Shown: piece after piece, positions 3,452 to 9,795 of the stretch | How the letters are laid out: each line of letters begins with the position of its first letter | Numbering within the stretch: position 1 is the first letter of the stretch | From: Kaiparowitsia implicata GSE-PSE-MK54-09C | GTDB taxonomy: Bacteria > Cyanobacteriota > Cyanobacteriia > Elainellales > Elainellaceae | DNA length: 64,000 nt | Assembly (NCBI GenBank): GCA_019359435.1 | Contig: JAHHHI010000102.1 | Span: 62,001-126,000, forward strand | Direction of reading: 5' to 3' | Notes under the pieces: model-generated | Told to the model about the DNA's origin: nothing | The model's input: the letters and a program-made list of their open reading frames with translations, nothing else | Database searches by the model: none | Position numbers and translations under genes: made by a program

Positions 3452-3781
3452 ATGACTTCGGTGGAGGACGTTACGGGCGATCGCTATCGATTGCTGGTCG
3501 AAGCGGTCACGGACTACGCGATCTACATGCTCGACCCCGACGGCAAGGTCGTCAGCTGGAACCCGGGGGCTAGGCGTTTCAAGGGCTATGAGGACCATGA
3601 GATCATCGGCCAGCATTTCTCGCGCTTTTACACGCCGGAGGACCAGGCGACCGAGCTGCCGGCGAGGGCACTCAGGATCGCCCAGAGCGAAGGGCGGTTC
3701 GAGAACGAGGGCTGGCGCGTCCGCAAGGACGGGACCCGTTTCTGGGCCCACGCATCATCGATCCGATCGTCCATCCCGTGA
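3452..3781 (+). CDS. PAS-domain N-terminal part of a split hybrid histidine kinase
   Basis: This encodes one PAS domain (RYRLLVEAVTDYAIYML to GWRVRKDGTRFWA) and stops abruptly after TRFWAH. The second PAS domain in the following frame is nearly identical in layout, and family members continue with an IDPI..GRALGFAKITRDLTE segment. That segment is present in the +2 frame from about 3755 on (IDPIVHPVSGRALGF). Restoring one base after CACGC at ~3754 fuses this piece to the kinase at 3778. ATG 3452 begins right before the PAS domain; ATG 3434 is an alternative. Confidence 0.7.
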   Translation: MTSVEDVTGDRYRLLVEAVTDYAIYMLDPDGKVVSWNPGARRFKGYEDHEIIGQHFSRFYTPEDQATELPARALRIAQSEGRFENEGWRVRKDGTRFWAHASSIRSSIP

Positions 3782-5385
3782 GCGGACGCGCCCTGGGCTT
3801 CGCCAAGATCACGCGCGATCTGACCGAGCCCAAGAGGCAGCAGGAGGCCCTGCGGCGAAGCGAGCAGTCCTTCCGGCTCCTGGTCGAGGGCGTGACAGAC
3901 TACGCCATCTACATGCTCGACGAAGCCGGCACCGTCACCAACTGGAATGCCGGCGCGGAGCGCATCAAGGGATATCGCCCCGACGAGATCATCGGCCGGC
4001 ACTTCTCGGTCTTTTACACGGAGGAGGAACGCGAGACGAAGGTCTGGGAGCGGGCCCTGGCGACCGCGCGCTCCGCAGGGAGCTACCAGACGGAAGGGTG
4101 GCGGGTTCGCAAGGGAGGCGAGCGTTTCTGGGCGAGCGTGGCGCTCGATCCGATCCGCGACGATCAGGGCAACATCATGGGCTTCGCCAAGATCACCCGC
4201 GACATGACCGAGCGGCGCAAGTCCGACCAGGCCCTGGAGGCCGCGCGCGAAGCACTCTACCAGTCACAGAAGATGGAGGCGCTCGGGCAACTGACCGGCG
4301 GCGTCGCCCACGACTTCAACAACCTGCTCAACGCCGTCGTCGGTAGCCTGGAACTGCTGCGCAAGCAGGTGACAGACGAAAGGCAGCTCGGCCTGATCGA
4401 AAACGCCCTTAAGGGCGCGACACGCGGCATCACGCTGACGCAGCGCATGCTCGCCTTTGCCCGGAAGCAGAATCTCCAGGTGAGCTCGGTGAACGTCTAT
4501 GAACTCGTCGCCGGGATGACGGACCTGCTGAGCCGCTCGCTCGGACCCTCCATCGAATTGGAGACCTCCTTTCCGACCAGCCTCAAGCCCGCGGCGGCCG
4601 ATCCGAACCAGATCGAGCTGGCCATCCTGAACCTTGCCGTGAACGCGCGCGACGCCATGCCGGACGGCGGCAAAATCACGGTCTCGGCGCGGAACGAGAC
4701 GGTCGCCGCCGGGGGCGCCGGCCCGCTGCAGCCCGGCGAATATGTCCGCCTGGTCGTCAAGGACGCCGGCACCGGAATGGACCCGGAGACCCTCGCAAGG
4801 GCCTCCGAGCCCTTCTTCACGACCAAGGGCGTCGGCAAGGGGACGGGCCTGGGGTTACCCATGGTGCTCGGCACGGCGGCGCAGCTGGGCGGTCGCCTAG
4901 AGCTTGAGAGCCGGGTCGGGGAGGGCACCACCGCGACGCTGTGGCTGCCGGTCAGCAAGCCGTCTTCTGGGCCGATTGCAGACATTGCGAGTGTGGATGC
5001 TTCGCCTGCCGAAACGACCCCCTCGATCCGGGTGCTGGCGGTGGACGATGACGCCTTGGTCCTCATGAACACGGTCGCATTGCTGGAGGATTTGGGGCAT
5101 CAGGTCGTCGAGGCCAGTTCCGGGCGCGAGGCGCTCCGGATATTGGGCGAGGACGCCGCCTTCGATCTCGTCATCACTGACCAGGCGATGCCGCACATGA
5201 CCGGAAGCCAGTTGATCATCGAGTTGAACGACCGGTGGCCCGACATCCCGATCATTCTCGCGACCGGGTACTCCGAGGTGCCGGCCAGTCTGCCTGCCCA
5301 CGTCAAGCGGCTGGGGAAGCCGTTCTGGCAAAAGGACCTTGAAAAGGCCATCGCGGATTCCAGCGCGGGTAGGGCTCGACGTTAG
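3778..5385 (+). CDS. PAS-HisKA-HATPase-REC hybrid sensor kinase (main part)
   Basis: 535 residues. In order: the tail of the first PAS unit, a second PAS (~25-145), a HisKA dimerisation domain with phospho-acceptor His in GGVAHDFNNLL, a HATPase with N-box NLAVNARDAMPDGG and G-boxes (DAGTGMDPE, GKGTGLGLPMV), and a C-terminal receiver (RVLAVDDDALVLMN, acceptor Asp in LVITDQAMPHMTG, Lys in GKPF). No membrane segment, so a cytoplasmic PAS-sensing hybrid kinase. It is probably one gene with 3452-3781, separated by an apparent one-base deletion. Partner regulator unknown. Confidence 0.85.
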   Translation: MSGRALGFAKITRDLTEPKRQQEALRRSEQSFRLLVEGVTDYAIYMLDEAGTVTNWNAGAERIKGYRPDEIIGRHFSVFYTEEERETKVWERALATARSAGSYQTEGWRVRKGGERFWASVALDPIRDDQGNIMGFAKITRDMTERRKSDQALEAAREALYQSQKMEALGQLTGGVAHDFNNLLNAVVGSLELLRKQVTDERQLGLIENALKGATRGITLTQRMLAFARKQNLQVSSVNVYELVAGMTDLLSRSLGPSIELETSFPTSLKPAAADPNQIELAILNLAVNARDAMPDGGKITVSARNETVAAGGAGPLQPGEYVRLVVKDAGTGMDPETLARASEPFFTTKGVGKGTGLGLPMVLGTAAQLGGRLELESRVGEGTTATLWLPVSKPSSGPIADIASVDASPAETTPSIRVLAVDDDALVLMNTVALLEDLGHQVVEASSGREALRILGEDAAFDLVITDQAMPHMTGSQLIIELNDRWPDIPIILATGYSEVPASLPAHVKRLGKPFWQKDLEKAIADSSAGRARR

Positions 5386-6926: not shown

Positions 6927-7307
6927 TCAGCTTTTCGAACGGATGGCGATCTGGAGCAATTCCATTTTCGCCGCGAACTCATCAAGCGCAATTGGTTTGC
7001 TGATCGTGCCCAGCGACACTGCCGCGTGCTCGGCCGCAATATGTTCCTGACCGCTGATGAAGAGCGATACGATTCCGCGCTCATACAACCATGCTGCGGC
7101 TGCCGGGCCGGTCGCGCCATCGGCGAGATCGATGTCGACCAACGCCGCATCCATCTCAATCCCGTCGATGGACGCCTTGAGATCGGAAAAGCTGGCGAGC
7201 GATCCGGCGAATATGTGTCCAAGGTCTTCGATCATGGCTTCGACATGAAAGACGATCAGAGGATTGTCTTCCAGATAGAAAATGCGAAGAGGCCTGTTGG
7301 CGGTCAT
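6927..7307 (-). CDS. Single-domain response regulator
   Basis: 126 residues forming one receiver domain: acidic pair in IFYLEDNPLIV, phospho-acceptor Asp in ALVDIDLADG, and Lys in TISKPIALDEF. There is no output domain, so it acts by protein contact or as a phosphate shuttle. The ATG at 7307 overlaps the stop of the upstream HisKA_2 kinase (ATGA), making it the third gene of a coupled KaiC-like/kinase/regulator operon. A longer frame begins upstream but would be antisense to the kinase's in-frame sequence. Confidence 0.9.
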   Translation of the reverse strand: MTANRPLRIFYLEDNPLIVFHVEAMIEDLGHIFAGSLASFSDLKASIDGIEMDAALVDIDLADGATGPAAAAWLYERGIVSLFISGQEHIAAEHAAVSLGTISKPIALDEFAAKMELLQIAIRSKS

Positions 7308-8359
7308 GAGCTCCGAGGGGTCTGTGTCAGCCGAGATAGAGGCGCCTGAGCCATGAACCGCAATCCCTCGGGCGCGAAAGCGAAGGTCGGGCGTGACCCG
7401 AACAGACCTGTCAACGCCGAGCGCATATAGCGTGTTCCATAGCCGACGCGGGTCGGCTCGACGACCGGTGGACCTCCTGTTTCGGCCCAATGCATCGTGA
7501 GGACCGGATCCGGGGCCGGGGACAAGTCCCACGTCACCGCCACGTGCCCTTCCGGCGTAGACAACGCGCCGTATTTGATGGCGTTTGTCGCCAGCTCGTG
7601 CAGGCAAAGCGCCAGAGTGGTGCCGGCCGCGCGCGACACGAGCACGGCGGGGCCGCTGATCTGGATGGCGGATCGCTCCTGGGAGCGGTAGGGGGCGAAC
7701 GTGGCGCCGACGACCTGATCCAGCGCGATCTCGTCGGCTCCCTCGTCAAAAGCGACGGCGTGGACGTTCGATAGTGCGCTCAGGCGCCCGGCAAAATCTT
7801 CCGACAAACCGTCGATCGAGGTCGCACCCCGCCGCGTCATCTGGAAAATCGAAATCACACTGGCGAGGATATTTTTGACGCGATGATTGAGTTCGAGCCG
7901 CAGCTCGGTTTCGCGTTCGAGATAATCCCGCACCTCGCGTTGTCGGAACCGCGTGAGAAGCGCCGATTGAATCCCGCTGACCAGTTCCAGCGCGGCGACG
8001 GGGCGTTGATGGAACGTCTGGCGCGACCGTGGCCAAGCGGCGGTCAGCGCCGATTGAATTTGCCGGGCAGGCGCCGCCCGGTCGAGCAGGATGACGATCG
8101 GAATTTCTGACCAGTTCGGCTGGTCTGCCAAAAATTGCGCTATAACTTTAATCGCGGCGGGGTTCAGGGCCTCGTGGGTAACGACGACAACCCCGGGCAA
8201 CTCCGCAAGACGATCGCCCAGATCCTCGGCGGTCGCCGCTTGAGCCCGAATTCCGTGCTCAAGCAGAAGCGACGTCATGTACGCGGCATCCTTGCGATAG
8301 GGCGCAAGGACGAGCACCCAATCGAGCATGCCGATACCGTCCTGCACGAAAAAGCTCAC
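7304..8359 (-). CDS. HisKA_2/HWE-type sensor histidine kinase with degenerate N-terminal receiver-like domain
   Basis: 351 residues. Residues ~10-130 look like a pseudo-receiver (LVLAPYRKDAAYMTSLLLEHG). The HisKA_2 region has the acceptor His in LRLELNHRVKNILASVISIF, typical of HWE/HisKA_2 kinases that feed the alphaproteobacterial general stress response or light sensing. The HATPase part has LCLHELATNAIKYGALS. The start is GTG 8359, overlapping the KaiC-like stop (GTGA). It likely phosphorylates the adjacent single-domain regulator. No membrane segment. Confidence 0.88.
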   Translation of the reverse strand: MSFFVQDGIGMLDWVLVLAPYRKDAAYMTSLLLEHGIRAQAATAEDLGDRLAELPGVVVVTHEALNPAAIKVIAQFLADQPNWSEIPIVILLDRAAPARQIQSALTAAWPRSRQTFHQRPVAALELVSGIQSALLTRFRQREVRDYLERETELRLELNHRVKNILASVISIFQMTRRGATSIDGLSEDFAGRLSALSNVHAVAFDEGADEIALDQVVGATFAPYRSQERSAIQISGPAVLVSRAAGTTLALCLHELATNAIKYGALSTPEGHVAVTWDLSPAPDPVLTMHWAETGGPPVVEPTRVGYGTRYMRSALTGLFGSRPTFAFAPEGLRFMAQAPLSRLTQTPRSS

Positions 8360-9795
8360 GCCTCAGGCAGGGGATTGTACGAGATCACGGAGACGCCCGA
8401 GCTGGCGATGAAGAGCTCCCGCACGTCGAGGTCATGCGGGCCATGCCTCTTCTTGACGACCGTGATGCTGCGCCTGAGCCGGCCTTCATGCTCCATGATG
8501 CGAAGCAGGAGCACTGTGTCTCCGAGGAAGCTGACATCGACGTCTATCCCGACGTTGTGCCCCAGCAGCCCATGCTGCGCCACGATGAGCATCGTCAAGA
8601 CGTTGGCGCGGGCAAGATGCTTGAGGAGGGATTGGATATCCCGCACGGCTTTATCGCGATGCGGCAGCGAGTTCAGATAGCCCGTGAAGCTGTCGATGAC
8701 GACGACGCGCGTTTTATTCTCGGCGACGACCTTCTGGACAATCTGCCCGAACTCGCCGGGCGAGATCTCGTTGGGGCTGAAGTCACAGATGACGAGCTGG
8801 CCGTCCTTGTGAAACTGGCGAAGGGCCATGCCAAGGCCCTCCGATCGGCGGAAGAAGGTTTCCAGCCGTTCCTCGAACAGGAACAGCGCCACGCTTTCGC
8901 CGCGCTGCAGTGCCGCCGTGGCGTAGAGCGATGACATCGTCGATTTGCCGGTGCCGGACTGGCCGATGACAAGTGTGATCGTTCCCGACTCCTGCCCGCC
9001 ACCGAACATTTCATCGAGCGCCTCCACCCCTGATTTGATGAGCTGTGGCTTGACGACTTCGACTGCAGATCCTGGGACAATTCGTGGGAATACGACGACG
9101 CCCTGGCCCTCGCGGATCGCCATGTCGTGGTAGCCATCGGCGAATGCCACGCCGCGCATTTTGCTGACTTCGATGCGACGGCGCACCGCGCCGTACTCCT
9201 CAAGTGACTTGTCGAACCGGATCACGCCGTGAGCGATCCCTTCGATTTCCTCACCGCTGCGCTCTCCGCCGTTCGTCTGGGTATCCAGCAGTAGGGCGAC
9301 GATCCCCTTTTTTGCCAGGAAGGACTTGAACCCCATCAGTTCACGCCGGAAGCGCGGCGTATCGCCGGTGATCAGACGAATCTCAAGGAGAGAATCGTAG
9401 ACCAGCCTGTCAGGCTTGTGTTCCTCGATGGCACGCTCGATTGCCATGCGGGTTTCGTCGAGGCGAAGTTCCGCTGTCTGAAATATCGTCTGGTCGGCAG
9501 CTCCATTGACCGCCTCTGAACCCGAGAGTTCCTCAACGTGGATGCCGTCGAGCGTCCAGCCATGTGATCGCGCAATCGCGCGCAACTCCGCGGCCGTTTG
9601 CGAGAGGCTGACATAGATGCAGCGCTCGCCCGCATCGACGCCTGCCCGCAGAAACTGCAGAGCAGCCGTCGTCTTTCCCGCGCCAGGGGCGCCTTGCATG
9701 ATGTAAAGGTTCGCGCTTGGGAGGCCGCCGCGCAGGATGTCGTCTAACCCAGCAATACCGGAGCTGACGACTGGTGGCTTTTTAGGTTTCGCCAT
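8356..9795 (-). CDS. KaiC-like double RecA-domain ATPase
   Basis: 479 residues with two tandem KaiC/RecA domains, each with a Walker A motif (GAPGAGKTT in CI, GQSGTGKST in CII). CII keeps the catalytic Glu pair (LFEER); in CI the position aligned with the Glu pair of cyanobacterial KaiC reads SLSQ. At the CII phospho-site the DSHIST motif aligns with DVDVSF, so the Ser is kept and the Thr is Phe. It heads an operon with a kinase and receiver, and there is no kaiA or kaiB nearby, so a signalling ATPase rather than a proven clock. ATG 9795 is preferred over TTG 9816. Confidence 0.87.
   Translation of the reverse strand: MAKPKKPPVVSSGIAGLDDILRGGLPSANLYIMQGAPGAGKTTAALQFLRAGVDAGERCIYVSLSQTAAELRAIARSHGWTLDGIHVEELSGSEAVNGAADQTIFQTAELRLDETRMAIERAIEEHKPDRLVYDSLLEIRLITGDTPRFRRELMGFKSFLAKKGIVALLLDTQTNGGERSGEEIEGIAHGVIRFDKSLEEYGAVRRRIEVSKMRGVAFADGYHDMAIREGQGVVVFPRIVPGSAVEVVKPQLIKSGVEALDEMFGGGQESGTITLVIGQSGTGKSTMSSLYATAALQRGESVALFLFEERLETFFRRSEGLGMALRQFHKDGQLVICDFSPNEISPGEFGQIVQKVVAENKTRVVVIDSFTGYLNSLPHRDKAVRDIQSLLKHLARANVLTMLIVAQHGLLGHNVGIDVDVSFLGDTVLLLRIMEHEGRLRRSITVVKKRHGPHDLDVRELFIASSGVSVISYNPLPEA

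Follow-up and report, generated by a model that had tools for sequence, protein, structure and literature searches.

A KaiC-like protein with a substituted CI glutamate pair and its pseudo-receiver histidine kinase: a candidate KaiB-independent signalling module

Contig JAHHHI010000102.1 of assembly GCA_019359435.1, deposited under the name Kaiparowitsia implicata GSE-PSE-MK54-09C, carries a compact cassette of three genes encoding a KaiC-like ATPase, a histidine kinase and a single-domain receiver. The window analysed here is a stretch of 64,000 nucleotides of this contig (positions 62,001 to 126,000), and all three genes lie on its reverse strand, as do the features located within them below. 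The gene of the KaiC-like protein, which has two domains (CI-CII), occupies 8356..9795 (479 aa, ATG start) and is followed by that of a kinase of the HWE/HisKA_2 type (7304..8359, 351 aa, GTG start) and by that of a receiver resembling SdrG and the receivers of PhyR (6927..7307, 126 aa, ATG start). A first-pass annotation, made by a model from the DNA letters alone, had noticed that successive genes share four bases, and both junctions are indeed start/stop overlaps of this length, GTGA between the KaiC and kinase genes and ATGA between the kinase and receiver genes. These overlaps suggest translational coupling of the three genes rather than the fixed stoichiometry that had been read into them.

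The KaiC-like protein contains two PF06745 domains (140.5 and 115 bits, against a cut-off of 26.6), each with its nucleotide-binding motifs, and stays far under the cut-offs of the circadian KaiC equivalogs TIGR02655 (140.3 vs. 546.25 bits) and NF006799 (229.1 vs. 408 bits). Alignment with canonical KaiC revealed three departures. In CI, which reads YVSLSQT, S65 and Q66 of the LSQT motif (aa 64-67, 9595..9606) take the place of the catalytic glutamate pair, leaving no glutamate there, as the first-pass annotation had noted by eye (SLSQ). At the phosphorylation sites, S422 (8530..8532) aligns with S431 of KaiC and F423 with T432, which leaves one phosphorylatable residue instead of two adjacent ones, and the long C-terminal tail is absent. 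The CII domain reads LFEER, and its glutamates E308 and E309 (8869..8874) align with the canonical CII pair.

A scan of named genomes returned 65 loci, 64 of which match over most of KaiC, while one match of 37 residues was dropped. Across these 64 relatives, identity to the window is 74-94% for KaiC and 50-76% for the kinase, and the genomes that carry them are alphaproteobacterial taxa by name, except for one metagenome-assembled genome (MAG) labelled 'bacterium'. The KaiC alignment comprised 59 sequences, namely that of the window and those of 58 relatives out of 64, the other six being omitted for a frame-split KaiC or for fewer than 465 aligned residues. S65, Q66, E308, E309, S422 and F423 are invariant in 59/59, so that the glutamates of the FEER motif pointed out in the first-pass annotation are kept throughout; K41 (the Walker A lysine of CI), K284, D134, D368, K212, R214, K448 and R450 are equally invariant. 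As 245 of the 479 positions show no variation, invariance alone is weak evidence, and what counts is the variety of codons (four encode S65, two encode Q66), together with the difference from the sister group described below. The SQ motif itself is kept in all 62 relatives, out of 64, in which it can be read. Genes in a G+C-rich locus were called by codon-position bias, a procedure that missed the KaiC of L163. In six of the 64 relatives (L071 and L073-L077) KaiC is frame-split or too short, through decay or sequencing error.

The origin of the CI change can be approached from more distant relatives. Related alphaproteobacterial KaiC-like proteins, at ca. 38-45% identity, have LSET or a near variant in CI, mostly FDE in CII, and a Ser or Thr followed by Tyr or Phe at the phosphorylation sites. 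The sister group is therefore already without one of the two CI glutamates (LSET), and the window clade has a glutamine instead (LSQT). In a maximum-likelihood tree the glutamine clade (13 rows, support 100/100) is nested in a clade holding both states (32 rows, 99/99), and among 44 KaiC proteins from the two genome surveys presented below, LSQT occurs in 2 and the glutamate is kept in 41, 1 being incomplete at the motif. Since the glutamine clade is nested and most relatives keep the glutamate, the change from Glu to Gln is most simply a derived one. No description of it was found in the open-licence literature searched. This CI change, which separates the LSQT clade from its LSET sisters, is what is new here; the general kind of gene pair has been known since 2011. 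A second change from Glu to Gln may be represented by a KaiC-like protein with LAQR in CI, followed by a HisKA kinase (L083 / L176, in genome G034, which belongs to the same family as the assembly); this protein sits beside the glutamine clade without firm support (89/87, on a long branch).

The Ser-Phe pair deserves less weight. The first-pass annotation had set it apart from the Ser-Thr pair of KaiC, and although S422-F423 is present in all 59 aligned sequences, the notion of a special loss was rejected. The pair is ordinary, because Ser/Thr followed by Tyr/Phe is the rule in related proteins and because the Ramlibacter tataouinensis genome paper of 2011 (PMC3164672) lists SY, TY and SF phospho-sites for its kaiC / Nt_HK context.

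The partner kinase lies downstream of KaiC on the same strand in 64/64 loci, and in 61 of them it starts no more than 60 bases from where the KaiC frame ends; the other three (L074, L076 and L077) are frame-split, and in one further locus (L023) the contig ends within the kinase gene. The HisKA_2 assignment of the first-pass annotation is recovered at 5.3e-6 and is surpassed by HWE_HK (PF07536) at 2.6e-22, a family matched in 48/48 kinases scanned. H254, W291 and E293 are invariant, and we take them to be the HWE signature residues. H159, in the motif LNHRVKN (7883..7885), is the predicted phospho-acceptor, a role assigned from the HWE family. The first 150 residues of the kinase gave no good Pfam match. 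Within them, residues 12-150 (7910..8326) form a domain common to kinases beside other KaiC-like genes, and homology with the N-termini of kinases adjoining LSET KaiCs was recovered by hhalign (99.6%, E 2.7e-24). The AlphaFold2 model of this region is a (beta-alpha)5 domain (pLDDT 81-93 by blocks) that matches receiver domains with Z scores of 14.0-16.5, most at 2.0-2.8 Å (Foldseek was also run), and the modelled kinase core matches Brucella LOV-HK (Z 19.5). When aligned by secondary structure, the acidic pair of a receiver corresponds to A19-P20, its phospho-accepting Asp to T61/H62 and its Lys to R119. The N-terminus is thus predicted to be a degenerate receiver, or pseudo-receiver. A KaiB- or SasA-like fold was considered and set aside, the structure matches listed there being mostly receivers. 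The pseudo-receiver of CikA is described in a review as inhibiting autophosphorylation and binding KaiB (PMC12632262).

A profile of the pseudo-receiver, built from KaiC-adjacent kinases, was used in two surveys that scored the best 12-13 candidates per genome. The threshold of E<=1e-30 was reached by 20 of 32 matches in the class (289 genomes) and by 29 of 32 in the phylum (299 genomes), and KaiC is adjacent to all 44 distinct strong matches (44/44). There were 15 weaker matches; the stretches around 13 of them were inspected, and KaiC was found in none of these. Conversely, the KaiC-like matches at E<=1e-90 all adjoin a pseudo-receiver match (19/19), and among weaker KaiC-like matches only a broken one (genome G154) does so. 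Within the genus to which Methylobacterium sp. NEAU K belongs, KaiC and the pseudo-receiver kinase occur together in 30/30 loci examined, out of 91 matches. Another KaiC-like gene, with LLAET in CI and a response-regulator open reading frame close behind, was seen at L113 (3084-4917; contig C67 of the window's own assembly, G000, ~59% G+C).

The receiver encoded last in the cassette is under the Pfam Response_reg cut-off (22.2 vs. 30.2 bits) and matches SdrG at 1.5e-5 and PhyR receivers from 8.3e-7. Alignment places its active-site residues at E13, D14, D58, S85 and K104, D58 (7134..7136) being the predicted phospho-acceptor. In 23 of the 64 relatives, BLAST with this receiver finds a similar gene behind that of the kinase, in two of them only as a piece. 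On this count the receiver would be an optional extra, an idea dropped because there is a second type, with a clear Response_reg domain. Genes of the second type follow the kinase gene in 16 loci, 14 of them recognised by Pfam and two (L060 and L073) solely by a profile made from the rest; in six Phyllobacterium loci (L032, L033, L034, L035, L038 and L079) they lie 130-170 bases upstream of kaiC instead. With both types, a single-domain receiver is adjacent in 45/64 loci. Such variation in type and place, with none adjacent in the other 19, does not favour the fixed stoichiometry mentioned above. Of nine sister kinases scanned in full, eight are of the HisKA family with a fused C-terminal receiver and one is an HWE kinase without one; given these eight fusions, the separate receiver gene seems to provide an equivalent output, differently arranged. 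The receiver gene of Bosea sp. Root483D1 (L017, 8484-8866) seems frame-split.

The first-pass annotation had placed the system outside the KaiA/KaiB context, and this stands for KaiB in most carriers: at E<=1e-5 no KaiB match was found in 45 of the 48 carrier genomes searched, whose completeness is unstated, KaiA being outside the search. These 48 genomes stem from 50 of the 64 loci, two of which had no genome to search. It does not stand for the assembly as deposited, in which KaiB matches over the cut-off occur on contigs C9, C55 and C59, the first of which also carries putative genes of KaiA and of a canonical KaiC. However, these genes probably belong to another organism. The assembly has a single photosystem D1 gene (psbA, on C76) and one rpoB (on C72), and the stretches read of C9, C55, C59, C72 and C90 have a G+C content of 52-57%, against 62-63% on the window contig (C61). 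The glycogen-branching enzyme encoded in the window is 89% identical to that of a Bosea MAG and 73% identical to that of Bosea sp. Root483D1 (20 genomes searched, 17 matched). The window contig is probably Bosea-like within a mainly cyanobacterial, mixed assembly, and the kaiA and kaiB genes of the assembly, on contigs of different G+C content that look cyanobacterial, were set aside as partners of the cassette. The organism of the window seems only partly present in the assembly; among the carrier genomes, KaiB was matched in 3/48.

We lean towards reading this cassette as a KaiB-independent KaiC signalling module, in which CI would be a platform, CII would do the cycling, the pseudo-receiver of the kinase would be the reader and the single-domain receiver the output. 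The KaiC-like protein would probably assemble as a two-tier ring, the CI tier of which would hold ATP with little or no hydrolysis, as a stable platform, because its ATP-binding residues are kept and its catalytic glutamates lost. Cycling with ATP/ADP, temperature or another cue would be left to CII, where the catalytic pair is retained and a single serine, S422, remains as a putative phosphorylation site; the CII-only operation put forward in the first-pass annotation is plausible on the same grounds. The partner kinase may read the state of KaiC through its pseudo-receiver and pass phosphate to the single-domain receiver, encoded beside the gene pair in most relatives, from which a biological output would follow. 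More tentatively, and with the odds somewhat against it, selection may have fixed a hydrolysis-dead CI ring in a whole clade, so that a clock part gated by KaiB would have become a switch that runs on CII only and is wired directly to a pseudo-receiver kinase.

Several observations weigh against this reading. KaiB was matched in three of the 48 carrier genomes, and its absence elsewhere is not ascribable to the glutamine, because the entire context described in 2011 is reported to lack KaiB. The contact between KaiC and the kinase is suggested by gene adjacency, and a pseudo-receiver match of intermediate strength (E 2.9e-18) has no KaiC in its 5-kb stretch, in surveys restricted to the best candidates of each genome. 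Nineteen loci are without an adjacent receiver, two of which end within 450 bases of the kinase. The AlphaFold model of the KaiC-like protein was poor (pLDDT 57) and was not used, so the active sites have no independent structural check. Finally, the likeness to KaiC2/KaiR2 of Methylobacterium extorquens discussed below follows the published description, the sequences compared being loci of the genus.

Three other explanations were weighed, each of which we regard as unlikely. The cassette could be an hourglass timer, reset from outside, in which autophosphorylation and dephosphorylation of S422 by CII would take hours to run down and the kinase would report the time elapsed. The phosphorylation-timer idea of the first-pass annotation is of this kind and was already proposed in 2011 for the kaiC / Nt_HK context (PMC3164672), and the CII catalytic pair and the serine are kept in 59/59 sequences; yet the loss of the CI glutamates fits poorly, CI ATPase being what KaiB binding needs in KaiC, and an hourglass seems improbable to us. 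KaiC might instead act as a constitutive scaffold or inhibitor, locking the kinase in one state until some other ligand releases it, with its own catalysis dispensable. The better conservation of KaiC than of the kinase across the 64 loci is what many fixed contacts would produce, but invariant CII catalytic residues and an invariant S422 suggest that catalysis is under selection, which makes a pure scaffold doubtful. That CI still hydrolyses ATP usefully through another residue, the change having little effect, appears just as poor a prospect: the sister proteins have a single glutamate in the motif and an engineered KaiC with both glutamates replaced has 22% of its total ATPase left, CII included (PMC5007536), but LSQT has no acidic residue at all and persists in every readable relative with both glutamine codons in use.

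Beyond the cassette, regulation by an EcfG-type general-stress promoter upstream of kaiC was judged not supported. The strict consensus motif occurred in 3 of 65 upstream regions, all three with one identical sequence, the background rate being 0.01 per 400 bases; the looser form adds only the window, where it lies 257 bases upstream of kaiC. The window also includes an island of glycogen/trehalose-type genes with a DNA-ligase-like gene (20312-40933), named by eye, which hints at stress functions, and a hybrid kinase gene (3480-5284) similar to DNA that lies, differently arranged, close to the cassette of two Mesorhizobium loci (L021 and L025).

Among the closest known systems is the 'dark-blue group' of the 2011 Ramlibacter tataouinensis paper (PMC3164672), described there as a kaiC gene directly ahead of the gene of a dedicated kinase, the N-terminal domain of which is conserved, and without kaiB. 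Co-transcription was shown, and a family of KaiC-interacting kinases was proposed along with the hourglass. The window cassette matches this description in its directly downstream kinase and its SF site. It differs from what is described there by LSQT in CI, FEER in CII, a short HWE kinase and a separate single-domain receiver, and the model obtained here gives the kinase N-terminus a receiver fold, where the paper mentions weak similarity to the receiver domain, SasA and KaiB. The KaiC/pseudo-receiver pair would offer a simple system for studying how the state of KaiC reaches a kinase.

The kaiC2-kaiR2 pair of M. extorquens is similar in combining KaiC with a partner gene, in having no KaiB in the cluster as described, and in a single phosphorylated serine, S426 (PMC8069551). 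According to this source, phosphorylation of KaiC2 drops as temperature rises, and the protein is a negative regulator of UV resistance. Of 30 loci examined in the genus searched, 29 are LSET or LSES and one is of the window type; the S426 numbering fits five of the 30 under one of their possible starts.

Canonical cyanobacterial KaiC shares with the window protein two tandem KaiC domains and nucleotide-binding motifs in both, but has the CI glutamate pair, the second phospho-site and the long C-terminal tail that the latter lacks. The CI change resembles that of the engineered E77Q/E78Q KaiC used for separating the roles of CI and CII, which is reported to have 22% of wild-type ATPase, to keep its phosphorylation, and to remain in a ground state that forms no KaiB complex, CI ATPase being needed for KaiB binding (PMC5007536). 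A natural, mostly KaiB-free clade with its CI ring switched off would show what the KaiC ring does once the KaiB branch is removed, and hence what purpose the first ring serves. Both proteins have lost the two CI catalytic glutamates and kept the CII pair intact; unlike the engineered protein, the natural one, known from its sequence alone, has S-Q rather than Q-Q, fixed across a clade that has its own kinase.

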